From Candidatus Parcubacteria bacterium (lineage in GTDB: Bacteria > Patescibacteriota > Patescibacteriia > UBA1558 > GWA2-36-10): a DNA stretch of 43,377 nucleotides. The stretch covers positions 1-43,377 of the forward strand of contig JABJNO010000020.1 in NCBI GenBank assembly GCA_018664825.1, read 5' to 3'. A program made the position numbers and the translations under genes. The notes beneath the pieces are model-generated. The model was not told where the DNA came from, did not search any database, and saw nothing but the letters and a program-made list of their open reading frames with translations. Positions 7,462-43,377 of this stretch are shown here, piece after piece (within the stretch, counting starts at the first letter, position 1; every line of letters begins with the position of its first letter).

Positions 7462-8640
7462 TTATTTATTTTTGAAAATAAATAAATACATTGGGATTAG
7501 TATGATACAAAAAATAATTCCTTGAATAAAGAATCCTGTTGCGTATGAAAATCTTTCTATTATCATCCCTAGCCCCAAAGCAACTATAGCGGTGGTGATT
7601 TTTTGAATTTGCGGAGGTATTGATGATAGGGTAGCTTTAAATTTTACATTTTTAAGCATACCCATCATTATGTAGCTACCATTTATCGGAACGAGACCGT
7701 GTAGTAATCCTATAAATAAGATAAATATTATTATTATTACCCATTGAAGAGAGGTGATGCCAAGTATAAAAAACAAAACAGCAAAAATTGTTATTTGAAG
7801 TTTAAAGAAATTATTTAGAGTTAAACCTTTTTTTATTTTGCCACTATACGCACTGATAAGAGAGGCGAGGGCAAAGCCTAGGCCAAAAAATAATCCGTAA
7901 TAAATAATAGGGATTTGTAGAAATGATTGATAGGCCGCTCTATAGCCATTCAAAGAAAATAAGAAGCCACTCATAATTCCCATGAAAAGAGCATATTTTA
8001 GAAAGCCGATATTATGAGCTAGGTGCAATACTTTTTTAAAATTTGTAGCTCCAATTTCCTCAATGTTTGATTGTTTTATTTTTGGTGTAACAAAAGAGTA
8101 GACTGTAAGTAGTCCGATTATATCCAAGATAAGAGCTATTGCAAAAGGTAGTTTTATATTAACACTGACTAGAAACGGAGCTAATATTATTAACACTATA
8201 GGTATTAAATATCCAATTGAACGTATTTTCCCCATTATCTTGGCAAAATCTTTTTCTTTGTTTAGACCCCGCAGTGTTTCATGCATAAATGCACTACCGG
8301 TTCCGGAAAAAAAAGAATAGCCAATGCTCATAGAAATACTTGCTAGTATAAGGATAAATATGTTGTTTGCGATTAGAAGAAACAAAGAGGATAGGGCTAG
8401 TAGTGTTTTGGCAAGAATCAATGCTCGTTTATGTCCAATTTTGTCTGATACATAGCCACTTGGTATTTCAAATATAAAACCACTAAGGCTACCTAGTAAT
8501 AAAATAATTCCAATGCCTTGAGGGGCGACGTTTGGAATTGTTAGATAATAGGCTCCTAGAAACGCTGAAAATATACGTTTATTAGTAATTATAAAAAGCG
8601 TATATTTCCAAATATTGGATTGTAATTTTTTCTGTACCAT
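7462..8640 (-). CDS. MFS transporter
   Basis: About 12 hydrophobic helices; SGYVSDKIGHKRALILAK MFS loop motif. Confidence 0.85.
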   Translation of the reverse strand: MVQKKLQSNIWKYTLFIITNKRIFSAFLGAYYLTIPNVAPQGIGIILLLGSLSGFIFEIPSGYVSDKIGHKRALILAKTLLALSSLFLLIANNIFILILASISMSIGYSFFSGTGSAFMHETLRGLNKEKDFAKIMGKIRSIGYLIPIVLIILAPFLVSVNIKLPFAIALILDIIGLLTVYSFVTPKIKQSNIEEIGATNFKKVLHLAHNIGFLKYALFMGIMSGFLFSLNGYRAAYQSFLQIPIIYYGLFFGLGFALASLISAYSGKIKKGLTLNNFFKLQITIFAVLFFILGITSLQWVIIIIFILFIGLLHGLVPINGSYIMMGMLKNVKFKATLSSIPPQIQKITTAIVALGLGMIIERFSYATGFFIQGIIFCIILIPMYLFIFKNK

Positions 8641-9320: not shown

Positions 9321-9351
9321 TTCGCCAAGATTGGCGTTTTTTTGGTATAAT
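9321..9351 (+). promoter_or_regulatory. Hairpin/T-tract promoter, copy D
   Basis: TTCGCC-N19-TATAAT; CGCCAagatTGGCG hairpin plus T7; ATG 6 nt after the -10. Confidence 0.65.
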
Positions 9352-9357
9352 ATTATT

Positions 9358-10347
9358 ATGAAAAAATATAGAACATTGCTAAGGGAACTGCAGTACAAAA
9401 ACGGTATGTTGTCTATGCTAAAGACAGACATCAAAAAAAGTAAGTTTCCCAAAATAGTCGTACTTCAGACCATAAATAGGTGCAATTGTGCTTGTCTGAT
9501 GTGCCCCTATTCTTATACAGTTGCCAATGAAAATGAAAGTAGAATGTCAGAAGAGACATTTAATAACATCTTGGATCAACTAGAAAAAGAGGACGAATTT
9601 GAGAGTCTTTTTTTCGCATTCCAAAATGAACCATTACTTGATCCGAGGATTATAGAGTGGGCAAAAAAATTTAAAGAAAGATTGCCAAACAAAAGATTAG
9701 AACTTGTCAGCAATGGCAGTATGCTCAAACCGGAGTTGGCAAAAGAAGTTTATAAATATTTTGATTTAGTGCATATTTCTCTAAATGCTTTTAGTGATGA
9801 AAGCTATCAAAAAATATCTCGCACAAAACATTATAAACGGATTTTTGATAATCTGATTAGTGTAGCAACTTTTCCAGAACAACAGAAAAAAACTATAGTT
9901 AGATTTATTTGTCAAAAAGCAAATGTAGATGAAAAAAAAGATTTTTATAATTTTTGGAGAAAGAAGGGCTTTATGGTTTTTGGTTTTGATGTAAACGATA
10001 GGCTCAAAGGAGTTCGAGATTTTGATAATAAAATAAAACTACCCCTAGACACTTCAAAAAAAATAAAAATGTTTGTTTTGAAACATTTGGGAAAGTTGAT
10101 GTTGCCTACTTGCTCGATACCGTTTATATGTGTTTATATAAAGGCTGATGGTGGAGTTGTACAGTGTTTCAATGATTGGAGCAATGAAAATATAATCGAA
10201 AATATAAACGACAAGAAAATCAAAGAAATTTTTCACAATGATAAGTATAAAAAGATAAGAAAGAAATTACTCGCTGATAAATTGGATGACAGTGTGATTT
10301 GTTCAAAGTGTGATTTGTACAGAGAAGGCATCTGGCTCACCGCATAA
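9358..10347 (+). CDS. radical SAM/SPASM protein
   Basis: RCNCACLMCPY CxxxCxxC; C-terminal Cys cluster CSIPFICVYIKADGGVVQCFNDW...CSKCDLY. Confidence 0.88.
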   Translation: MKKYRTLLRELQYKNGMLSMLKTDIKKSKFPKIVVLQTINRCNCACLMCPYSYTVANENESRMSEETFNNILDQLEKEDEFESLFFAFQNEPLLDPRIIEWAKKFKERLPNKRLELVSNGSMLKPELAKEVYKYFDLVHISLNAFSDESYQKISRTKHYKRIFDNLISVATFPEQQKKTIVRFICQKANVDEKKDFYNFWRKKGFMVFGFDVNDRLKGVRDFDNKIKLPLDTSKKIKMFVLKHLGKLMLPTCSIPFICVYIKADGGVVQCFNDWSNENIIENINDKKIKEIFHNDKYKKIRKKLLADKLDDSVICSKCDLYREGIWLTA

Positions 10348-10359
10348 GTTGATTACTTT

Positions 10360-11685
10360 ATGAAGATAGTTTTAATATTACCTAGGGGAGGCATTTATAG
10401 AAGAAAGACAGGGGCCTTTCCTATTTTTATTAGGTATTCGCCGCTTACCCTGCCTTCTTTGGTTTCTCTTTTGCCCAAAGAAATAGATATTGATATCAAA
10501 ACTTATGATGAAGGGGTAGAGGACATAGACAAAGAAAAGATAGAAGCAGACTTGATAGGTATTACTTGTGTCACAGGTGCTGCTCCAAGAGCTTATGCTT
10601 ATGCTGATTATTTTCGCTCTAGGGGTATCAAAGTAGTTATGGGTGGAGTCCATGCGACTTTGTTGCCAGATGAAGCAGCCAAGCATGTAGATGCGGTCAT
10701 CACAGGACTAGCAAATGAAACTTGGCCACAACTCATAAGAGACTTCAAAGCTGGACAGATGAAAAAATTGTACGCAGCCAGCGATGACTTGAGCTATGCA
10801 GGTTGGCCAGACCCAGTCAGAAGTATAAACAAAGGAAAGAAATTTATATCAATCAATAGTATTCAGGCTACCTATGGTTGTACCAATAGGTGTGAATTTT
10901 GCGTGACTCCTTATACCTGCAAGGATTATAAGCACAGGCCCATAGAAGACGTAATAAGGGAGTTAAAGAATATAAGGGGTAAATATGTAGAATTTGTAGA
11001 TCCAAGCCCTATTGAGGACGTAGAGTATGCCAAAAAGCTTTTTAGAGCCATGATTCCTCTCAAGAAAAAATGGGTAGGCTGCGCAACTACGCGTATTGGA
11101 TTTGATGACGAATTGTTAGACTTGGCGACCAAGTCTGGTTGCAAGGGATTGTTGATTGGCTTTGAGTCTGTAACACAAAACAATCTAAATAGAATCAGTA
11201 AAGGATTTAATAAAGCTGACAAATATTATGAGTTGGTTGATAAATTGCACAAGAAACACATTGCTATCATGGGATGTTTTGTTTTTGGCCTAGATACAGA
11301 TCAAAAAGATGTATTCAAAAATACCGTGGATTTTGTAAACAAAGCCAATATTGATTTGCCAAGGTATACGGTCAACACACCTTTTCCTAGTACGGGACTT
11401 TTTGCTAGGATGAAAAAAGAAAATAGATTATTGACCAAATTTTGGGCAATGTATGATGCTCAGCATGTGGTCATCAAGCCAAAAAATATGACAGCAGAAG
11501 AATTGCAAAAAGGACATCATTGGGCTTGGAAAAAAACATATAACTGGAAATTTATTATAAAAAGATTAGCCCACGCCAGGTCTTTTACTGGAGTATTGTT
11601 GTTGGCAAATTATGCCTATCGTCATTATGGTCGGAGTCTACCCAGGTATGATAGAAAAGAAATGGAAAAAGATTTAAAAATATAG
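10360..11685 (+). CDS. B12-binding domain radical SAM protein
   Basis: N-terminal Rossmann-like ADLIGITCVTG...VVMGGVHATLLPDEAA; CTNRCEFC cluster. Confidence 0.9.
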   Translation: MKIVLILPRGGIYRRKTGAFPIFIRYSPLTLPSLVSLLPKEIDIDIKTYDEGVEDIDKEKIEADLIGITCVTGAAPRAYAYADYFRSRGIKVVMGGVHATLLPDEAAKHVDAVITGLANETWPQLIRDFKAGQMKKLYAASDDLSYAGWPDPVRSINKGKKFISINSIQATYGCTNRCEFCVTPYTCKDYKHRPIEDVIRELKNIRGKYVEFVDPSPIEDVEYAKKLFRAMIPLKKKWVGCATTRIGFDDELLDLATKSGCKGLLIGFESVTQNNLNRISKGFNKADKYYELVDKLHKKHIAIMGCFVFGLDTDQKDVFKNTVDFVNKANIDLPRYTVNTPFPSTGLFARMKKENRLLTKFWAMYDAQHVVIKPKNMTAEELQKGHHWAWKKTYNWKFIIKRLAHARSFTGVLLLANYAYRHYGRSLPRYDRKEMEKDLKI

Positions 11686-11694
11686 ACAATAAAG

Positions 11695-13023
11695 ATGAAA
11701 ATAACATTTATAATGCCTTCTGTTGGCAGGAAACTTAAACAAAAAAAATATTTGAAAACATGGCTGATGGAACCATTGGCTATTGCGCAGTTGGCTAGCC
11801 TCACTCCTTCTCATGTAGATGTAGAATTTTTTGATGATCGTTTGGAATTGATTGATTATGAAAACAATGACGCAGATTTGATAGCTATAAATATAGAAAC
11901 CTATACCGCCAGAAGAGCTTATGAGATAGCTAGAAAATTCAAAGAAAAAGGCAAGAAGATTATTATGGGAGGTTTTCACGCAACATTGAATCATGAAGAA
12001 GTATTGGAACATGTGGATTCAGTATTGATTGGAGAAGCTGAAAATATCTGGAAAGATATTATAAAAGATTTTGAAGATGGAAATCTAAAGAAAATTTATA
12101 AAGCAGAACAAAGGCCAAAGCTGGATGGCCTGTCACCAGACAGAAGTATATACAAAGGAAAAGAATACCTCAAACTTGGATTGATCGAGGCTGGGAGAGG
12201 TTGTTATTTTAGCTGCAATTTTTGTTCAGTAACCAATTTTTATAAACATAGCTATACAGCACGACCAGTTGAAGATATTATAAAAGAGGTTAAAGAGCTG
12301 AATTATAGATATTATTTTTTTGTAAACGACAATATTTGTGCTGATTTTGATTATGCCAAGAAACTATTCAAAGCTCTCATCCCCTTGAAGATAAAGTGGA
12401 TAAGCCAGGCAAGTATCAATATATCAAAAGACAAGGAGCTATTGAGGCTAATGAAAGAGAGCGGTTGTATAGGTGTTTTGATAGGCTTTGAGTCTTTGAG
12501 TAAAAGCTCCCTAGAAGACATGGGCAAGCCAGCTATAAATAAAATTAGTACCTATGAAAAAGCCATAGATGACATATATGAGTATGGTATAGGTATATAT
12601 GCTACTTTTGTTTTTGGTTATACAGAAAAGGATGAATATTATTTTGAAAAAACATATGAGTTTGCCAGGAGAAATAAATTTTTATTAGTTGCCTTCAATC
12701 ATTTGGTGCCATTTCCAGGAACACCGCTTTATAAAAAATTGGAAAAAGAAGGTAGATTACTGTATAAAAAATGGTGGTTAGAGCCTCATTTTCGATTTGG
12801 TGATGTAGCATTTAGACCCCAACACATGAGTCCAGAAAAACTGTCTTTCTTGTGTCATGTGTATAGAAAGAAATTTTATAGTTTTTCATCTTTTTGGTAT
12901 AGATTTTTTAATTTTAAAACCAGCTTTAGATCACTGGGCTCAATGTATGTTTTCTTTTTAGTAAATATAATATCAAAGATGGATGTCAGAAAGAGAAAGG
13001 GGCTACCATTGGGAAAAAAGTAA
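11695..13023 (+). CDS. B12-binding domain radical SAM protein
   Basis: IIMGGFHATLNHEE...; RGCYFSCNFCSV cluster. Confidence 0.9.
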   Translation: MKITFIMPSVGRKLKQKKYLKTWLMEPLAIAQLASLTPSHVDVEFFDDRLELIDYENNDADLIAINIETYTARRAYEIARKFKEKGKKIIMGGFHATLNHEEVLEHVDSVLIGEAENIWKDIIKDFEDGNLKKIYKAEQRPKLDGLSPDRSIYKGKEYLKLGLIEAGRGCYFSCNFCSVTNFYKHSYTARPVEDIIKEVKELNYRYYFFVNDNICADFDYAKKLFKALIPLKIKWISQASINISKDKELLRLMKESGCIGVLIGFESLSKSSLEDMGKPAINKISTYEKAIDDIYEYGIGIYATFVFGYTEKDEYYFEKTYEFARRNKFLLVAFNHLVPFPGTPLYKKLEKEGRLLYKKWWLEPHFRFGDVAFRPQHMSPEKLSFLCHVYRKKFYSFSSFWYRFFNFKTSFRSLGSMYVFFLVNIISKMDVRKRKGLPLGKK

Positions 13024-13024
13024 T

Positions 13025-14368
13025 ATGAAGATACTCTTTATCTATCCAGCCATGGGAGTCAAAGAGGACTATAGTGTACAAAATAAAAAAAACACTACAA
13101 AAACTCGCGCCATAGAACCTTTGACTATCGCCACTTTAAGTGGACTTACCCCCAAAGAATGGGATAGGAGTTTTTTTGATGACAGAATAGAAAATATAGA
13201 CTATGACCACGAATGTGATTTGGTGGCTATTACTTCGGAGACCTTTACAGCCAAGCGAGCCTACGAGATTGCGGAGGGTTTTAGAAAGAAAGGAAAAACT
13301 ATTATAATGGGTGGATTTCATCCATCACTTTGTCCAGAAGAAGCTGCTCAGTACGCAGATGCTATAGTCATTGGTGAGGCAGAAGAAATTTGGGCAAAGG
13401 TGTTGTTAGATTTTAAAAAAAATAAACTAGAAAAATTTTATAATACAGAAAGAAGGTCCGACTTGGTTGGTATTAGACCTGATCGATCAATTTTTAAAGA
13501 TAAAAAATATTTTGCCTTATCGTTGGTTGAAACAGGACGTGGCTGTAAATTTGATTGTGAGTTTTGTGCTGTATCATTATTTTTTAAGAAAAAATTTATT
13601 AGGAGACCAATAGACGAAATCATTGACGAGCTAAAGGAGTTGAAAAATAAAACAATTATGTTTGTTGATGACAACATTTGTGCTGACATTCAGACTGCCA
13701 AAAAATTATTTAAAGCTTTGATTCCACTCAAGATAAAATGGGTGAGTCAGGCTAGTATCAATATAGTAAAGGATGAGGAGTTGTTGGATTTAATGAAACA
13801 AAGTGGGTGCCTCGGTCTTTTGATAGGTTTTGAAACTATTCACAAAGAAAACCTAAAAACTATAGGAAAATATCATAATCTCGATGTTGATTATAATGTA
13901 GCTATAAAAAAATTATACAAACGTAAAATTAAGATTTATGCTTCTTTTTTGATGGGTTATGATCAAGATAACGAGCAGACCATAAAAGATACTTTAAAAT
14001 TCGTAATTAAAAATAAATTTTTTATAGCCAGTTTTTATCAGCTTACACCTTTTCCTGGTACGCGCCTTTATAAAAGGTTGATAGCCGAGAAGCGCTTGTT
14101 AAACGAAAAATGGTGGCTAGGTGGTAAAAATTATTTGTATGGCAAGGTTGTTTACAAACCAAGGTTGATCAGTGCTGAAAAATTGTCAGAAGCTTGCTAT
14201 GAAGCTCGTAAAAAGTTTTTTAGTTTTAATTCAATTATTATTAGAGCTAGATATAATTGCGATAGTCCCTTTTCTGCATTTTTATATTTTGCTACAAATT
14301 TTTTGACCAAAAAAGAAGTGAAAGAAAGACAATGGAGAAAATTGGGGAGAAAGGAGTTTCATGGATAA
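13025..14368 (+). CDS. B12-binding domain radical SAM protein
   Basis: IIMGGFHPSLCPEEA...; RGCKFDCEFCAV cluster; close paralog of the preceding gene. Confidence 0.9.
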   Translation: MKILFIYPAMGVKEDYSVQNKKNTTKTRAIEPLTIATLSGLTPKEWDRSFFDDRIENIDYDHECDLVAITSETFTAKRAYEIAEGFRKKGKTIIMGGFHPSLCPEEAAQYADAIVIGEAEEIWAKVLLDFKKNKLEKFYNTERRSDLVGIRPDRSIFKDKKYFALSLVETGRGCKFDCEFCAVSLFFKKKFIRRPIDEIIDELKELKNKTIMFVDDNICADIQTAKKLFKALIPLKIKWVSQASINIVKDEELLDLMKQSGCLGLLIGFETIHKENLKTIGKYHNLDVDYNVAIKKLYKRKIKIYASFLMGYDQDNEQTIKDTLKFVIKNKFFIASFYQLTPFPGTRLYKRLIAEKRLLNEKWWLGGKNYLYGKVVYKPRLISAEKLSEACYEARKKFFSFNSIIIRARYNCDSPFSAFLYFATNFLTKKEVKERQWRKLGRKEFHG

Positions 14369-15446
14369 TTTTAAAGTTGATATAGCAAGGGAGTCAGATG
14401 ATCTAGGAATAAGGACATTGTTGGACAACAATCCTGTTCCTGGTAAAATCTCTCTTCTCTATCAAAAAAATCCAAGTTATTTTCAGGCAAGTGATGTTGC
14501 TAGTAAGTATTCAAATACTATAGTTATAAAAAATAATCAAAAAGATGTCGTAGCTGTCCAGACTACAGCTATCCGGGATTTATATTTGGATAGACAAAAA
14601 AGACAAATAGCTTATCTGAGTAATTTGCGTGTTGATAAAAAATATCAAGGACAAAGAATCCTTAAAGAGGGCTTTGAGTTGTTGAAAAAAATTTATCCCA
14701 AATTTGAAACACCATTTTTATTTTCTACTATCATAGCTGGCAATAGCAAGCTAACTAAAAAAAGAAAAGATGGCCTGCAGTTTGAGTGTTATGGCAATTA
14801 TCATACAAAACTGGTTATTTTGCATAAAAAAAAGAAAAACATTGATGAACGATATAAAATAATTCGTGGATCTAGGGAGCTGCTAGAAGACATAGTTGTT
14901 TTTTTACAAAAAGAGGGTAGTAAAAAAAATCTGTATCCTGTTTTTGATTATAATGATTTTATAAGAGGTGATCTTTTTAAGGATTTTGATATAAAAGATT
15001 TTTATGTTGCCATGGACAATGATGAGATTGTTGGTGTAGTTGGTAAGTGGGATCAAAATAAATTTAAACAAAACACTGTAGTTGAATACAATGGCATTTA
15101 TAAGTATAGAAAAATTTATAATAGTTTGTCTAAGTTTTATAAAATGCCACAACTACCAAAAATTGACGAAACGATAAACTTTGCCTATATAAGTTTTATA
15201 GCTACAAAGGATAATGACCCAAATATTTTTTCTAATTTATTGAAAGCGGTTTACAACGACAATATAGATTCCAAATATTTGTATTTGGCTCTGGGATTAC
15301 ATGAAAATGATCCATTACTAGGGGTTGGCAAAGATTTTAGGTGTATAAATTATACTAGCAAATTATATTTCAATTATTGGCAAAAGCCAGAAATGCTGTA
15401 TAATTTTGATATAGGTATTCCATATATTGAGCTAGCTACATTATGA
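14361..15446 (+). CDS. GNAT-like acyltransferase
   Basis: IAYLSNLRVDKKYQGQRILKEGFELLKK acetyl-CoA-site-like motif; overlaps preceding gene. Confidence 0.7.
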   Translation: MDNFKVDIARESDDLGIRTLLDNNPVPGKISLLYQKNPSYFQASDVASKYSNTIVIKNNQKDVVAVQTTAIRDLYLDRQKRQIAYLSNLRVDKKYQGQRILKEGFELLKKIYPKFETPFLFSTIIAGNSKLTKKRKDGLQFECYGNYHTKLVILHKKKKNIDERYKIIRGSRELLEDIVVFLQKEGSKKNLYPVFDYNDFIRGDLFKDFDIKDFYVAMDNDEIVGVVGKWDQNKFKQNTVVEYNGIYKYRKIYNSLSKFYKMPQLPKIDETINFAYISFIATKDNDPNIFSNLLKAVYNDNIDSKYLYLALGLHENDPLLGVGKDFRCINYTSKLYFNYWQKPEMLYNFDIGIPYIELATL

Positions 15447-16162
15447 AAATAAATACAAGAAAAGCCAAAGATTTGTCCAGTAAACAAAAAGGCACAATGT
15501 TTGCCTTGATGGATAAATATTATAGCAATTTGGACGAGCAAGTTTTTTTGACTGATTTATCAGAAAAGGATGTTATTTTTTTGTTGTTAAATAAAAAAGA
15601 GGAGATTGTAGGTTTTACTAGTTTAAAATTATTTACAAAAAAAGTAGATCAAAAAAATATAGTGGGAGTTTTTTCAGGGGATACAGTCATAGACAAAAAA
15701 TATCGTGGCGGACTAGAATTGCCATATGCTTGGCTAAAATATGCCATGGATCTGAACAAGCACAACGATTTGGTATTTTGGTTTATGTTGTCCAAGGGAT
15801 ATAGGACGTATAGATTGTTACCTAGATTTTTCAAAAACTTTTATCCTCATTATAAAAACAAAACACCCCTAGAGATAAAAAATACAATTGACCTTTTTGC
15901 AACAGATCTTTTTGGAAAAGATTATGATAGTGAAACCAATATCTATAAACCAGCTAAAAACTATAATGTTAAGCTAGGAAAAAAAGAAGTAAATGAAAAA
16001 GTATTAAAAAATCCACACTTAAGATTTTTTGCTACCAAGAATGAGTTTTTTTGGAAGGGAGAAGAATTGGTTTCATATTGTGAAATAAGTAAAAAAAATC
16101 TTAAAGTTTATGCACAACTTTTTTATTGCTTGGGCACAATAAATTTGTTGGAAGTTTATTAA
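15443..16162 (+). CDS. GNAT-like acyltransferase
   Basis: EIVGFTSLKLF...FSGDTVIDKKYRGGLELPYAWLKY; 4-nt overlap with preceding gene. Confidence 0.55.
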   Translation: MKINTRKAKDLSSKQKGTMFALMDKYYSNLDEQVFLTDLSEKDVIFLLLNKKEEIVGFTSLKLFTKKVDQKNIVGVFSGDTVIDKKYRGGLELPYAWLKYAMDLNKHNDLVFWFMLSKGYRTYRLLPRFFKNFYPHYKNKTPLEIKNTIDLFATDLFGKDYDSETNIYKPAKNYNVKLGKKEVNEKVLKNPHLRFFATKNEFFWKGEELVSYCEISKKNLKVYAQLFYCLGTINLLEVY

Positions 16163-16196
16163 AAGCTTATATTAAACTAAATAAGTATTTAAAGAG

Positions 16197-17795
16197 ATGA
16201 AAACTTTATTTGCCAATATTATTTGGTTTTTATCAACCATAAATAATACTATAGCCTATAAATTAGCGGGAGCTAATGTTGTTAAGGTGCAAAAGAAAAT
16301 TCTTTTTGATACCCTGCGTAAAAATGCAGGATCTGCATTTGGGCAGAAGCATAATTTTGCCAACATAAATACCATAAAAGAATGGCAAGAGAGCGTACCT
16401 TTGAGTAGCTACGAAGATTATGAGGAATATGTGGAGCAAATAAAAAAAGGACAAGAAAAGATATTGACAGAGGATAAGATAATTTTACTAGAACCAACCA
16501 GTGGCTCAAGTGGCTCCAACAAACTCATCCCCTATACTGATGATTTACAAAAACAATTTCAAAAAGCTATAGATCCATGGATATTTGATTTGATGACCAA
16601 ACACAAGGGTATTTTGTCAGGAAAGCACTATTGGTCTATCAGTCCAGTTACAAAAGTAAGTGTAGATAGTAAGTTGCCTGTAGGTTTTGCCAGTGATGAA
16701 GAATATTTGGGGACAATAGCCAAACATTTGTTGCGCGCCATAAGACCTGTGCCAAATATAGTGAGAGAGATTGAGGATATAGAATCTTTTTATTATGTTA
16801 GTCTATTTTTCTTATTGAAAGAGAAAAACTTGGTTTTTATTTCTATTTGGCATCCGTCATGGCTTATTATTTTATTATCAAAGTTTGATATCTATGCCAA
16901 GCAACTTTTTCAAGATATTGCCAGGGGAGAATTAAATCCACCAAAGCCTATCAAGGACAGTTTGAAAAAAGAATTATTGTATTTTATAAAACCAGCTCAA
17001 AAGAGAGCCGAAGAGCTGGAGAAAATATTTAATTCAGATGCCCAGGGTGCCTTATATCAAAATATTTGGCCCAAGCTAAAAGTTATTAGTTCTTGGTCTG
17101 ACAAAAATACGGGTTCAACAAATGAACAGTTAAAGAAGATATTTCCGCATGTTTTTTTTCAAGACAAAGGATTGATAGCTACAGAGGCCATTGTATCTTT
17201 TCCAATTATCAATCATCTAGGTAAGCATCTAGCAATCAATTCTCATTTTTTCGAATTTAGGCAGATAGAATTTGATAATATTTATAGTGAGCATAAAAAA
17301 AATAAAGAAATATTGTTGGCGCACCAACTAAAGGAAAATAGTCACTATGAAGTCATAATAACAACTTTTGGGGGACTGTATAGGTATCAATTGGGGGACA
17401 TAATAAAAGTAGTCGGCTTCAAACATGATTTTCCTTTGATTGAGTTTGTTGGTAGGTCAAAGGCAGTGTCTGATGTTTGTGGAGAAAAATTAAACGAGAT
17501 TCATGTTGCTGGAATTTTAAGAGAAATATTTGATGAGTACAATATTTCACCATCTTTTGCTATGTTGGCTCCAAACAAAGAAAATAACAAGTTTTTTTAT
17601 ACTTTATTTTTGGAAATAGATAGTAGTATCCAAAAGTCTCAGGATAATCTAAAAAATTCTTTAGAACTCAAGTTAAAAGAAAACTATCACTATGACAATT
17701 GTATAAAACTAGAGCAATTAGAAAAATCCAGAATTTTTATAATCAAGGATAATGCACATAAAGTATATTTAGAAAAAATGAATTCGTTGGTATAA
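16197..17795 (+). CDS. GH3-family acyl-acid amido synthetase (apparent C-terminal frameshift)
   Basis: LEPTSGSSGSNKLIPYTDDL, SSWSDKNTGST, FFQDKGLIATEAIVSFPI, YRYQLGDIIKVVGF motifs; alternative-frame tail continues to 17872. Confidence 0.85.
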   Translation: MKTLFANIIWFLSTINNTIAYKLAGANVVKVQKKILFDTLRKNAGSAFGQKHNFANINTIKEWQESVPLSSYEDYEEYVEQIKKGQEKILTEDKIILLEPTSGSSGSNKLIPYTDDLQKQFQKAIDPWIFDLMTKHKGILSGKHYWSISPVTKVSVDSKLPVGFASDEEYLGTIAKHLLRAIRPVPNIVREIEDIESFYYVSLFFLLKEKNLVFISIWHPSWLIILLSKFDIYAKQLFQDIARGELNPPKPIKDSLKKELLYFIKPAQKRAEELEKIFNSDAQGALYQNIWPKLKVISSWSDKNTGSTNEQLKKIFPHVFFQDKGLIATEAIVSFPIINHLGKHLAINSHFFEFRQIEFDNIYSEHKKNKEILLAHQLKENSHYEVIITTFGGLYRYQLGDIIKVVGFKHDFPLIEFVGRSKAVSDVCGEKLNEIHVAGILREIFDEYNISPSFAMLAPNKENNKFFYTLFLEIDSSIQKSQDNLKNSLELKLKENYHYDNCIKLEQLEKSRIFIIKDNAHKVYLEKMNSLV

Positions 17796-17872
17796 ATTTG
17801 GGGGACATAAAACCCGTTAGTTTGAGTGCTTACAAAAAATGGAAAGAAACATTTGAGGGTGATTATGTATGA
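17796..17872 (+). other. Out-of-frame C-terminal extension of the GH3 gene
   Basis: Shifted frame encodes NLGDIKPVSLSAYKKWKETFEGDYV* immediately after the GH3 stop. Confidence 0.55.
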
Positions 17873-17906
17873 TGTAATTATTTCAATATATTACTTTAAA
17901 TAAAAA

Positions 17907-17932
17907 ACGAGATGAAGCATCTCGTTTTTTTA
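17907..17932. terminator. Bidirectional terminator
   Basis: aaaaACGAGATgaagCATCTCGTttttttt. Confidence 0.85.
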
Positions 17933-18390: not shown

Positions 18391-19419
18391 TTAGAGCTCT
18401 TTATTTTCAAAAGTATATGTCCAATATTTTATAAAACCGATTATTAAAGCTAGGTAAAAAGGAAATACAAATATGACTTCAACTGGAACAGAGCTAAAAG
18501 GTACCAGGTAACCAGAAAAATTTTCTGTTGTACTAGGGCTGTATATTCTGATGTTTTTTGCTACAAATATGGCCTCAATAGGAAGAGCAATCGCAGTAGC
18601 TAATAGAATATAAGAAATAAATTTTTTGAATAAATCAAAGTGTATAAATACTTTATCTACAAATAATATAGCCAGCCAGATGATTATAATCCAGCTAATG
18701 GTCAATATGATATTGATATCTCTAAATATGTATGACCAGGCAGGAAGGCCAGCGTTGCTAATCATTGCATCGATCATAACCTCAAACAATAAAACTCCAA
18801 CAACTGATACAGCTAGATATCTTCCCCATTTTATCTTTTTTATGGGTAAGAGTATTTTGTTATCAATCACTAGACTCCAATATTTATAAAAACCAATCAC
18901 TAGAGCCATGAATACTGGTATATAGTACAGTGATCCCCAAGGGATACCCAGGAGAGGAATATACAGGTTGCCTATTAGCTGATGAGTTTCAGGTGAATAA
19001 CTTCTAATACCAAGTTGCATGACTACGGTTTCACCAATTAGTCCGATTATCAATGTAGCCAACAAATATAAGAAAAATCTTTTGTAGGCACGGACTTTTG
19101 GCAATAAGTGATCTATGACTACCGTAGTTGTCAAAATGATCGTTGCCCAACCAATAGTCAACAGCCAGCTTACATCACGATAGACATAGGCCCATTCTCC
19201 CATTTTGAAATTGTACCAGAGTGGATGAGTAATAAACTCAAAGATAAAAATTCCTATGGCGATGATAAAGAATTTTAATAATATTTTCTTTGTGTAGCGG
19301 GATAAGTAAAAAATAAAAAAAATAGCTAGTACTAAAACAGCTATTTCAAAAAAAATTATGGGTGTGGTCGCAGCTTTATCAAACTGACAAAGTGACGATG
19401 AGCATGGTTGAAATATCAT
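18391..19419 (-). CDS. polytopic membrane protein with internal duplication
   Basis: Two halves align: YSPETHQLIGNLYIPLLGIPWGSLYYIPVFMALVIGFYKYW / YSPSTTENFSGYLVPFSSVPVEVIFVFPFYLALIIGFIKYW. Confidence 0.75.
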   Translation of the reverse strand: MIFQPCSSSLCQFDKAATTPIIFFEIAVLVLAIFFIFYLSRYTKKILLKFFIIAIGIFIFEFITHPLWYNFKMGEWAYVYRDVSWLLTIGWATIILTTTVVIDHLLPKVRAYKRFFLYLLATLIIGLIGETVVMQLGIRSYSPETHQLIGNLYIPLLGIPWGSLYYIPVFMALVIGFYKYWSLVIDNKILLPIKKIKWGRYLAVSVVGVLLFEVMIDAMISNAGLPAWSYIFRDINIILTISWIIIIWLAILFVDKVFIHFDLFKKFISYILLATAIALPIEAIFVAKNIRIYSPSTTENFSGYLVPFSSVPVEVIFVFPFYLALIIGFIKYWTYTFENKEL

Positions 19420-19483
19420 AGCAAATTGTTAAGTTATTTTTATTATATCACTAAAATATGGATTGTTCAATAAGTAATATTTT

Positions 19484-20587
19484 CTACTCTCTAAGCATGC
19501 AAGAACACCAGTCAGAATAGCCCTCTTCTTTTTCGGAGGACATTTTCTCCCATATTTTATTCAATGGTGCCTCTCTTACGTTTCCGTATGACTTACTATT
19601 GAAATCACAGCTACAAACATCACCATGTGGAGCAACATACAAATAGTTTTTACCTCCTGCACAGCCAGTACTTTTGTAGCTAGTAGTATAAGAATAGACC
19701 AAAATACCTGGATATTTATCGTTTTTGTTGTATTTTTTGCTAGATTCTATAAGGTCATCAATCCAGTCATTGTTTTTTAACTCATCTTTGCATTCTTTTA
19801 GTTTTCCGCAAGGTATTTGGTCAAAAACTATAATTTCATGAATATTTAATTTTTTTCCCAATTCAACAATTTTATCAAAATCACCCCTTAGATAAGCTTC
19901 TTTTGATAAACAACAAGAAATCCCTACTGTCATGCCAGTTTCGAGAGCTGTTTTTATGCCATCTATTGCTTTTTCATATATACCAGGTGTATTTCGTAAT
20001 TTGTCGTGAGTATCTTTGTCTGCTGAATCAATACTTACATAAACTCCATCCAAGCCAGCTTTTCTCAAGCCGGCTGCTTTTTCTTTGAGTGCCCAGCCAT
20101 TTGTAAAAATAACAGTAGTAGACAAATCTTTATCTACACATTTTATTATTTCATTGATATCTTTTCTCAATAAGGGTTCGCCGCCAACAAAATTTAATAC
20201 AGAAACTCCTAGTTGTTGCCCGCTATGTATGACTTTTCGTAGTTCTTCCAAATCTAACTTCTTTTTATCTTCATGGTGCATTCCATTGAAGTAGCTACAA
20301 TGGTAGCAATCGGCATTGCAGATATCACTTACAGCTAGACTCATCAATATTGGTAAATTTCTATTGCTAACCAAGCGAAAAGATAGCTTGGAAAATAACT
20401 TTATAGAAGGTTTACTAAAAAGTGAGGGGATAGACATTGAATACACAGGAAAACCATCTCTATAATGTATAATTTTTTTATGATTGAGATACATTTCGTA
20501 TATATTTTCCATTACTTCAATAGAAAAGCCGAAAGATTTTTTTGCAACAAGATATTTAAACCTTAGTTTATTGGTAATTTTTAGCAT
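19484..20587 (-). CDS. radical SAM/SPASM protein
   Basis: SDICNADCYHCSYF CxxxCxxC, NFVGGEPLLR, C-terminal GCAGGKNYLYVAPHGDVCSCDFN. Confidence 0.88.
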   Translation of the reverse strand: MLKITNKLRFKYLVAKKSFGFSIEVMENIYEMYLNHKKIIHYRDGFPVYSMSIPSLFSKPSIKLFSKLSFRLVSNRNLPILMSLAVSDICNADCYHCSYFNGMHHEDKKKLDLEELRKVIHSGQQLGVSVLNFVGGEPLLRKDINEIIKCVDKDLSTTVIFTNGWALKEKAAGLRKAGLDGVYVSIDSADKDTHDKLRNTPGIYEKAIDGIKTALETGMTVGISCCLSKEAYLRGDFDKIVELGKKLNIHEIIVFDQIPCGKLKECKDELKNNDWIDDLIESSKKYNKNDKYPGILVYSYTTSYKSTGCAGGKNYLYVAPHGDVCSCDFNSKSYGNVREAPLNKIWEKMSSEKEEGYSDWCSCMLRE

Positions 20588-20593
20588 GAATTA

Positions 20594-20628
20594 AGTATAA
20601 TGAAAGTTTTATATAATGTAAATAAAAA
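20594..20628 (-). promoter_or_regulatory. Promoter for minus-strand radical SAM gene
   Basis: Minus strand TTTACA-N17-TATACT, 6 nt before ATG (leaderless geometry). Confidence 0.6.
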
Positions 20629-20646
20629 ACACCCACTAGGGCGTTT

Positions 20647-21786
20647 TTAGCCAATAATCTTCTTTACAATTGTAATTTTTCTAAACAAATAAACAATAAA
20701 CCAAGAAGTAAAGAAAGAGAGTGGGAATACAATAAGTGCTTTGTAAACTCCAGAAATATTTGTATTTAAAAATAAGAACTGGAAAACTACCACAACAGAA
20801 TAATGTACAATATAAATGCCATAAGCATTTTTACTCATATTATCAAAAAAGTGATTTGTTTTTTTGATATATTTTATGGATATGATTAATAAAGAAAAAG
20901 ATAATAAGATAGAAGAGGAAACAAAAAGTATTGGGCTAATAAAAAGATCATTAAAAACACCGGAGTTCAAATAACTTGTTGTGAGCAAAAAGTAAGAGAG
21001 AGTAGCGCTGGTTATTAAAATCCACCATTTTTTAATAAAATTGGAACCTTGTGAAAACAGGCTTTTTTCCATACCACGGACACCTATTATGGTTCCAATT
21101 GAGAAGAATAAAAAGTAAAGTATAATTCTATTTAGCTGTACTGAAAATGGTCCAAATATTGTAATAAACCAACCATCAAAGATTGTTGATATTGGAATAT
21201 AACTTATGGTTCCTAGGATAAAAAATGTTAAAAGAAAATATTTAGCATTTGAGAAAAATTTTGAGTTTGAGCTTTTTATTTTATTTATTGTATTTGGAAA
21301 AATTTTGTATATTATAACTATAAAAATATTAAATAAAAACAAAACCCATAAAAACCACAAGGGGCCATTGGTAAAAAGGTTTAGTGCTTTTACCCAATGA
21401 ATAAAAAAATATTCTAGGCTAGCTGCTTTACCAAGATAGGATGATAATAAAATATAGTGAGCAGGTATATTGATAAGTAGCCAACCAACCAAGAAGGGTA
21501 TTCCGAGTCTATATACTCTATTTTTTAAAAATTTAGTTACCCCTTTTTTGTTTATACTTTTTATAACAAATAATCCAGATATAAAAAAGAAAAGGAACAT
21601 AAAAGATGTATCAAGAATATCGATAATGGTATCAAAAACAAAAAAATTATTTTTATCTACTACGAGTGATCCAAATCCATGTGTTGTATAGGCGAGGAGT
21701 ATATGATATAAAACCACCAGCGTAGTCAAAAAACTACGTAGGTAGTCGATAGCAATATAGCGATTTGTTAAACTGTTGTTTGGCAT
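20647..21786 (-). CDS. acyltransferase family 3 membrane protein
   Basis: NRYIAIDYLRSFLTTLVVLYHILLAYT plus about 10 TM helices. Confidence 0.82.
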   Translation of the reverse strand: MPNNSLTNRYIAIDYLRSFLTTLVVLYHILLAYTTHGFGSLVVDKNNFFVFDTIIDILDTSFMFLFFFISGLFVIKSINKKGVTKFLKNRVYRLGIPFLVGWLLINIPAHYILLSSYLGKAASLEYFFIHWVKALNLFTNGPLWFLWVLFLFNIFIVIIYKIFPNTINKIKSSNSKFFSNAKYFLLTFFILGTISYIPISTIFDGWFITIFGPFSVQLNRIILYFLFFSIGTIIGVRGMEKSLFSQGSNFIKKWWILITSATLSYFLLTTSYLNSGVFNDLFISPILFVSSSILLSFSLLIISIKYIKKTNHFFDNMSKNAYGIYIVHYSVVVVFQFLFLNTNISGVYKALIVFPLSFFTSWFIVYLFRKITIVKKIIG

Positions 21787-21789
21787 TCT

Positions 21790-22320
21790 TTATTTATTTT
21801 CTTTTTCCAATTCTTCCAGAAACAATAAATGTTTCTCTTTTTCTTTGCTTAGACTTTTTTCAACTTGCTTAAATTTTTCAAGCATTTTATTTTTGATGTC
21901 TTCATTCAAAAATTCATCAGCCATGGGGTAGAGGACGTTATCTTCCTTGAATATATGCTCTTGAAGAAGTCTTGCATACCCTCTTGCATTTTCAATTATT
22001 TTATCTTTATCATTTTCTTTTATTCCTTTTTCCAATTCTTTAATAAAATCTCTCCCCAAATCATGTTCATGTAACATTTGTTGAGTGGGGTTACAATGCA
22101 TCTGTACTTCATCTTTACATAGTTCTATAAATAAAATATCTTCTTCTTTGGCATGATGAAATTTATCCGCATAGTCTTTGACAAAGATAATTATTTTTTC
22201 AAAGAAATTTTTATTAATCTTGTTTCCAGATTCTATAGAATCACATTCTTTGAGTAATGCAGTTATTACTTTTAATATATTTTGATGTTCGTCAGAGAGT
22301 ATTTTTAAGGCTGTTTCCAT
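21790..22320 (-). CDS. hemerythrin HHE-domain protein
   Basis: LSDEHQNIL...FHHAKEEDILF...HEHDLGRDF...LLQEHIFKEDNVLYPMAD. Confidence 0.88.
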   Translation of the reverse strand: METALKILSDEHQNILKVITALLKECDSIESGNKINKNFFEKIIIFVKDYADKFHHAKEEDILFIELCKDEVQMHCNPTQQMLHEHDLGRDFIKELEKGIKENDKDKIIENARGYARLLQEHIFKEDNVLYPMADEFLNEDIKNKMLEKFKQVEKSLSKEKEKHLLFLEELEKENK

Positions 22321-42039: not shown

Positions 42040-42242
42040 TTTGCCGGTTAAGGATTTGCCCGTTGGGCATTATGAAAGGCTGAACCTTGAAAACAAAATA
42101 TAATATCATAAATATCAACAAAATGTTTATGAGCATCTTAATAGAATATTCTTAATTGAATATATTGTAAAAACATCTCGTATATAAAAAATATACAATT
42201 TTTAAAAAAATAAATCCGTCAAAAGTTTTCAAAATTTTTGAT

Positions 42243-43377
<1,135 letters not shown>

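Follow-up and report, generated by a model that had tools for sequence, protein, structure and literature searches.

A conserved gene set of B12-binding-type radical SAM enzymes, GNAT-like acyltransferases and a GH3-family synthetase in a Candidatus Parcubacteria genome: a candidate acyl-amide pathway

The analysed stretch of DNA (43,377 nt; contig JABJNO010000020.1 of Candidatus Parcubacteria bacterium, assembly GCA_018664825.1, phylum Patescibacteriota), hereafter the window, carries at positions 9358-17872 a tightly packed array of seven plus-strand genes, A to G. The open reading frames were confirmed where the sequence-only reading of this DNA had placed them, with successive intergenic distances from A to G of 12, 9, 1, -8, -4, and 34 nt. 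Gene A (9358-10347) encodes a radical S-adenosylmethionine (rSAM)/SPASM protein of 329 amino acids and starts at the ATG at 9358, a TTG at 9331 being a possible alternative. Genes B (10360-11685) and C (11695-13023) encode B12-binding-type rSAM enzymes of two kinds, type B and type C, and gene D (13025-14368) a second type-C enzyme, 50% identical to C. They are followed by genes for a probable GNAT-type acyltransferase (E, 14361-15446), a GNAT-fold acyltransferase (F, 15443-16162), and a GH3-family acyl-adenylate/amide synthetase (G, 16197-17795). Sequence comparison with other genomes identifies B, C, E, F, and G, namely two kinds of B12-rSAM together with E, F, and the GH3 protein, as the conserved core of a biosynthetic gene set, gene A being accessory.

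Domain searches agreed with the initial view that the array encodes four rSAM enzymes, three of them (B, C, and D) with B12-binding N-termini. Protein A exceeds the Pfam cut-offs for both Radical_SAM (1.3e-16; 61.7 against 29.5 bits) and SPASM (1.2e-9; 38.8 against 21.5 bits) and thus belongs to the SPASM radical SAM proteins. Proteins B, C, and D match Radical_SAM (6e-17 to 2e-15) and the B12-binding domain (4e-9 to 1e-7), the latter domain of C lying 0.1 bit below the Pfam cut-off. The B12 domain precedes the radical SAM domain, and the three cysteines of the CxxxCxxC motif are invariant in five sequences; by this layout B, C, and D are B12-dependent radical SAM enzymes, predicted to use cobalamin and a [4Fe-4S] cluster. 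Assignment to subfamilies with hidden Markov models, as had been proposed, confirmed the general B12-rSAM type and reached no characterised family, the best score being 91 bits against equivalog cut-offs of 180-775 (HpnJ, BchE, PhpK, ladderane TIGR04072, HpnR, and others). HpnJ, TIGR04072, HpnR, and BchE, which are among the nearest general models, have the same B12-binding N-terminus and rSAM layout, but the window proteins score 40-91 bits against their cut-offs of 360-650; to our knowledge, no B12-rSAM of these types is linked to a GH3 protein. In the phylogenetic tree, the B-type sequences formed a single clade of 10 members across phyla (support 99/99) and the C-type sequences a single clade of 14 (99/98), by which D is an additional C-type copy, while window B grouped with its counterpart from genome G834 (95/97). 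B-like rSAMs are also present in Vibrio, Paraclostridium, and others, in whose records the GH3 search gave no match. No homologue of gene A was found at E 1e-3 in seven other cluster loci, which removes from the conserved set the rSAM/SPASM gene that the sequence-only reading had listed with the others.

The proposed pair of GNAT-like acyltransferases held for F, through its predicted fold, and is reduced to a probable assignment for E. The AlphaFold2 model of F, of modest quality (pLDDT 63.5), has GNAT core topology, and Foldseek matched it to AAC(2')-Ia (best match, E 1.2e-5) and NatD. On the strength of this model, together with the alignment, which has the motifs SGDT and KGxRTYR, and the distribution of the family, F has a GNAT fold and is predicted to catalyse acyl transfer. 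Protein E gave sub-threshold Acetyltransf matches in Pfam (0.005) and a PDB profile match of 0.03, and its structure predicted from a two-sequence alignment had a pLDDT of 36.5; considered with the family alignment and the co-occurrence with F, these weak matches make it a probable GNAT-type acyltransferase, possibly a tandem of two GNAT folds, with the second GNAT-like half read from sequence. The same fold, predicted in F and probable in E, is found in OlsB-type GNAT N-acyltransferases and in the aminoglycoside acetyltransferases AAC(2'), from which F differs in that no Pfam or NCBIfam family fits it and E in its scores below threshold. The viral contigs searched contained no relative of F. 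In Azospirillum (L042, 6628-10700), an F-like protein adjoins a thioester-reductase-like protein and a cyclic-peptide-type ABC exporter, and neither E nor a cluster GH3 was found at that locus.

The assignment of G to the GH3 family (Pfam 6e-55) was borne out by all three GH3 domains, PF03321, PF23571, and PF23572, which scored 187, 75.2, and 25.4 bits against 23.6. Its ATP motifs, TSGSSGSNK, YRYQLGD, and DVCGEK, are intact, with the key residues invariant across nine homologues, so that adenylation and amide formation are predicted for this protein. The best PDB match is the plant enzyme GH3.15 (1.7e-21). Homology with plant acyl acid amido synthetases (GH3.15, GH3.12, JAR1) covers most of the protein, with common ATP motifs, but it is remote and the alignment stops before the C-terminal domain; we know of no radical SAM or GNAT partners co-encoded with the plant enzymes. 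The array had been described as ending at 17872, where the conserved GH3 tail does end; the in-frame stop of G, however, is at 17795, and 17872 is reached only across a frameshift. The tail, INLGDIKPVSLSAYKKWKETFEGDYV, with the GDIKP motif (17796-17872, plus strand; region of discrepancy 17780-17872), continues in another frame, while in the eight intact relatives compared it is in frame, as in the example ending in GQRLGDIKPVALHLQGGWDKVFKGDYL. The discrepancy stems either from an erroneous base call or from the loss of some 26 residues in this copy.

The ten cluster GH3 proteins formed one clade (support 99/98), apart from 11 other bacterial GH3 proteins. A functional parallel is the OlsH/OlsI system of Singulisphaera acidiphila, in which the GH3-family enzyme OlsH uses ATP to couple ornithine with free fatty acids, and this amide-forming step from an acyl acid and an amine is followed by acyl transfer (PMC12493201). 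In that system, however, the acyltransferase is an alpha/beta hydrolase, whereas in the window set the acyltransferases are GNAT-like and B12-rSAMs are added. OlsH identity was ruled out by score and by phylogeny: against the OlsH model (NF052613, cut-off 620 bits) the window GH3 scored 62.6 bits and five other cluster GH3s 0-62 bits, while OlsH-like GH3s, with 325-408 bits, fell on the opposite side of the 99/98 branch. The cluster GH3 proteins are therefore, at the sequence level, a subfamily distinct from OlsH. OlsH-like GH3s were observed in two other genomes of the candidate phyla radiation (CPR), L016 (9468-10988) and L018 (9503-11032), with 408 and 325 bits, below the same cut-off, which suggests aminolipid synthesis in some CPR bacteria.

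The sequence-only reading had held that the set would be refuted by a lack of conservation among gene neighbourhoods. It recurs, in samples drawn from genome collections (380 genomes of the phylum and 399 of Bacillota) and on a Citrobacter plasmid. Within the phylum, F was found in 2/380 genomes, and E in the same two, the window genome and G101; if independent, two random two-genome sets would coincide among 380 with a probability of 1/72,010. In both carriers, E and F sit with the special GH3 and B12-rSAMs, all inside about 6 to 9 kb, and in G101 (L017, 5770-15568) the counterparts of B, C, E, F, and G are clustered but distributed over both strands. In this genome the cluster lies between rpsJ (S10) and rplC (L3) and splits the str/S10 ribosomal operon region, which is normally continuous. 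GH3 proteins of any kind exceeded the cut-off in four of the 380 genomes, including both F carriers; those of the other two CPR genomes are of different kinds, with no E, F, or B12-rSAM homologues alongside, and none of 52 relatives of the window genome had a GH3 of the cluster kind.

In the Bacillota sample, all five genomes with F (5/399) have an adjoining GH3 and B12-rSAM, one locus (L049) being cut by the contig end. Gene order is B-C-D-E-F-G in the window, B-C-E-F-G in G834 (57, 51, 34, and 43% identity to window B, C, E, and G, respectively), F-G-B-C-E in G958, and split between strands in G101; this shuffling among lineages indicates that selection keeps the set together. A Clostridia metagenome-assembled genome (MAG; L021), recovered by a contig scan with a two-sequence GH3 alignment and two weak patterns, has B, C, C, F, G, B, C, and E in line, downstream of two ABC exporters and an alpha/beta hydrolase, and the plasmid of Citrobacter portucalensis carries F-G-B-C-E-C-C, a PAP2 phosphatase, and another B. 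Two further versions have no rSAM homologues. In Acinetobacter baumannii (L040, 7150-14829; a chromosome-sized record filed among plasmids), HlyD, an EmrB-type DHA2 pump, F, GH3, a TolC-like channel, and E lie in line, in what looks like an uncharacterised make-and-export system, and in Burkholderia arboris F and E are followed by a fatty acid desaturase, GH3, and a Rieske oxygenase. E. coli genomes searched with the Citrobacter GH3 DNA gave no match, and most GH3 matches in gut Clostridia, Prevotellaceae, and Myroides were of other kinds, without adjoining E, F, or B12-rSAM homologues. The set is not CPR-specific, being sporadic and more frequent in Bacillota, and is best read as a horizontally spread pathway.

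The host is, as had been surmised, a reduced CPR-type cell, with a genome of 1.16 Mb (98.7% complete). No ketoacyl synthase was found in it by a search that was positive in 14/14 control genomes, nor a BtuF-type B12-binding protein, other importers lying outside that search, which makes scavenging of both acyl groups and B12 probable. The sequence-only reading had regarded the B12 demand of the array as striking and as requiring such scavenging. The second part stands as probable; B12 use extends beyond the array, five further B12-binding domains being encoded elsewhere in the genome. Three more B12-rSAM genes lie inside 10 kb on its contig C13 (L019, 5887-15558) and another on contig C3 (L020, 7290-8828).

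Building on the composition of the gene set, the conservation and co-occurrence of its members, the ATP motifs of the GH3 protein, and the GNAT fold of F, all read from sequence, we infer for the pathway an acyl or lipid-like scaffold, its radical chemistry, an order of steps, amide formation, and a product. With a probability of about 0.5, these genes constitute a full biosynthetic set, disseminated by horizontal transfer and having B, C, E, F, and G as its core, for the synthesis of a single small acyl-amide. An acyl acid would be taken up from the surroundings, given the lack of ketoacyl synthases in the host. The two kinds of B12-rSAM would then alter unactivated carbons of the scaffold, by methylation, ring formation, or desaturation, with the extra type-C copy, D, adding one more step in the window. 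The GH3 enzyme would form an acyl-AMP and transfer the acyl group to an amine, yielding an amide, by analogy with the fatty-acid-using OlsH (PMC12493201). E and F would attach further acyl groups, and the product would be exported or put into the membrane. The Burkholderia desaturase and Rieske genes, which stand in place of the B12-rSAMs, suggest a substrate with an alkyl chain, in this one genome only, and the exporters near the A. baumannii and Clostridia MAG clusters suggest release of the product, which is probably a small, fatty molecule. Somewhat short of even odds, an as yet undescribed class of acyl-amide biosynthesis may be built around E, F, and GH3, with a range that takes in CPR bacteria, Bacillota, and Acinetobacter and with interchangeable modules for carbon modification: B12-rSAM in anaerobes, oxygen-dependent desaturase/Rieske enzymes in aerobes, or none.

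Several observations weigh against this acyl-amide pathway. The single desaturase/Rieske version may simply reflect neighbouring genes, and the A. baumannii set is without any tailoring enzyme. The B12-rSAM scores, far below the cut-offs of all characterised families, point to no particular reaction type, and the tail in another frame means that the window GH3 is possibly damaged if the base call is not wrong. GH3 enzymes also use small aromatic or jasmonate-like acids, so that a fatty acid is not forced. In the alternative that survives best, possible though doubtful, the same genes make a small diffusible metabolite (a signal, antibiotic, or metallophore) on a small aromatic or short branched acid, with no fatty chain. 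It would accord with the drug-efflux type of the exporters adjoining the set in A. baumannii and the Clostridia MAG, with the resemblance of F to small-molecule acetyltransferases, and with the status of GH3.15, the best PDB match, as a hormone amido synthetase; the Burkholderia desaturase genes and the fatty-acid activity of the bacterial GH3 OlsH lean instead to an acyl chain, and the clusters showed no genes for the supply of aromatic or polyketide precursors.

A lipid of the membrane or envelope that the set would make or modify and the cell retain, such as a GH3-started aminolipid akin to ornithine lipids with its chain changed by B12-rSAM, is an unlikely product. The functional analogy with OlsH/OlsI, the PAP2 phosphatase of the Citrobacter cluster, and the presence of HpnJ-, BchE-, and ladderane-type models among those nearest to the rSAMs would fit such a lipid, but the GH3 proteins reach at most 63 bits (range 0 to 63) of the 620 required by the OlsH model, the tripartite export genes of A. 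baumannii favour release, and the patchy distribution fits secondary metabolism better. Erroneous binning of a non-CPR contig is improbable: the absence of this GH3 from the 52 relatives and the occurrence of the closest cluster versions in a Bacillota genome would be explained by it, and the MAG, in 25 contigs with 2.7% contamination, leaves a small chance of a misplaced contig, but G101 carries the set between ribosomal protein genes, and the window contig itself bears four tRNAs and the start of a 23S rRNA. Maturation of a ribosomally made peptide, suggested by the rSAM/SPASM and B12-rSAM proteins known from such clusters and by the TIGR04317/SPASM-type similarity of A, is rejected as highly improbable, because gaps of at most 34 nt leave no space for a precursor gene in the operon, Pfam and NCBIfam reported no domain recognising such peptides, and gene A is not conserved.

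The statement that the array is not recognisable as a characterised cluster stands, since no described match was found in the open-access literature. The apparently uncharacterised pathway is defined by conserved co-occurrence and not by one odd operon. It may be filed with the already known kind of GH3-dependent biosynthetic clusters, and it contributes two families of acyltransferases that no curated model fits and a bacterial GH3 subfamily of its own; identification of the product could show the chemistry to be of a new class. CPR bacteria are usually regarded as lacking secondary-metabolite or lipid pathways, and the set places a probable pathway of one of these types in a CPR host without ketoacyl synthase. 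With its reduced form in A. baumannii and its full form on a Citrobacter plasmid, the product is testable in the laboratory.

At the borders of the operon, the "clear promoter" of the sequence-only reading is too strong a description. An extended -10 element, TGGTATAAT (9343-9351, plus strand), lies 6 nt upstream of the ATG of gene A, a distance that would give a leaderless transcript; promoter-like matches in this AT-rich region are at chance level (44 against 42), which leaves the element plausible. A terminator-like hairpin with a T-run, CGCCAAGATTGGCG TTTTTTT (9323-9336, plus strand), probably belongs to the preceding gene. The proposed terminator downstream of G is real by folding, with a 13-pair intrinsic hairpin at 17902-17930 (plus strand; -13.8 kcal/mol, z -5.18), and can also serve the convergent gene. 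Upstream, on the opposite strand, a gene for an efflux-type transporter of the major facilitator superfamily (7462-8640; Bcr/CflA-like, a weak match) possibly encodes the exporter of the operon. Downstream, a convergent minus-strand group (18391-22320) encodes a two-repeat membrane protein without family, an NirJ/AhbD-like rSAM/SPASM protein, an OafA-type acyltransferase, and a hemerythrin; a protein similar to this rSAM/SPASM (26% identity) is encoded directly upstream of the L049 cluster. At the window end, the 23S rRNA start (42242-43377) extends over 1136 nt for 928 model positions, which hints at about 200 nt of inserted or intronic sequence; Rfam gave no intron family.

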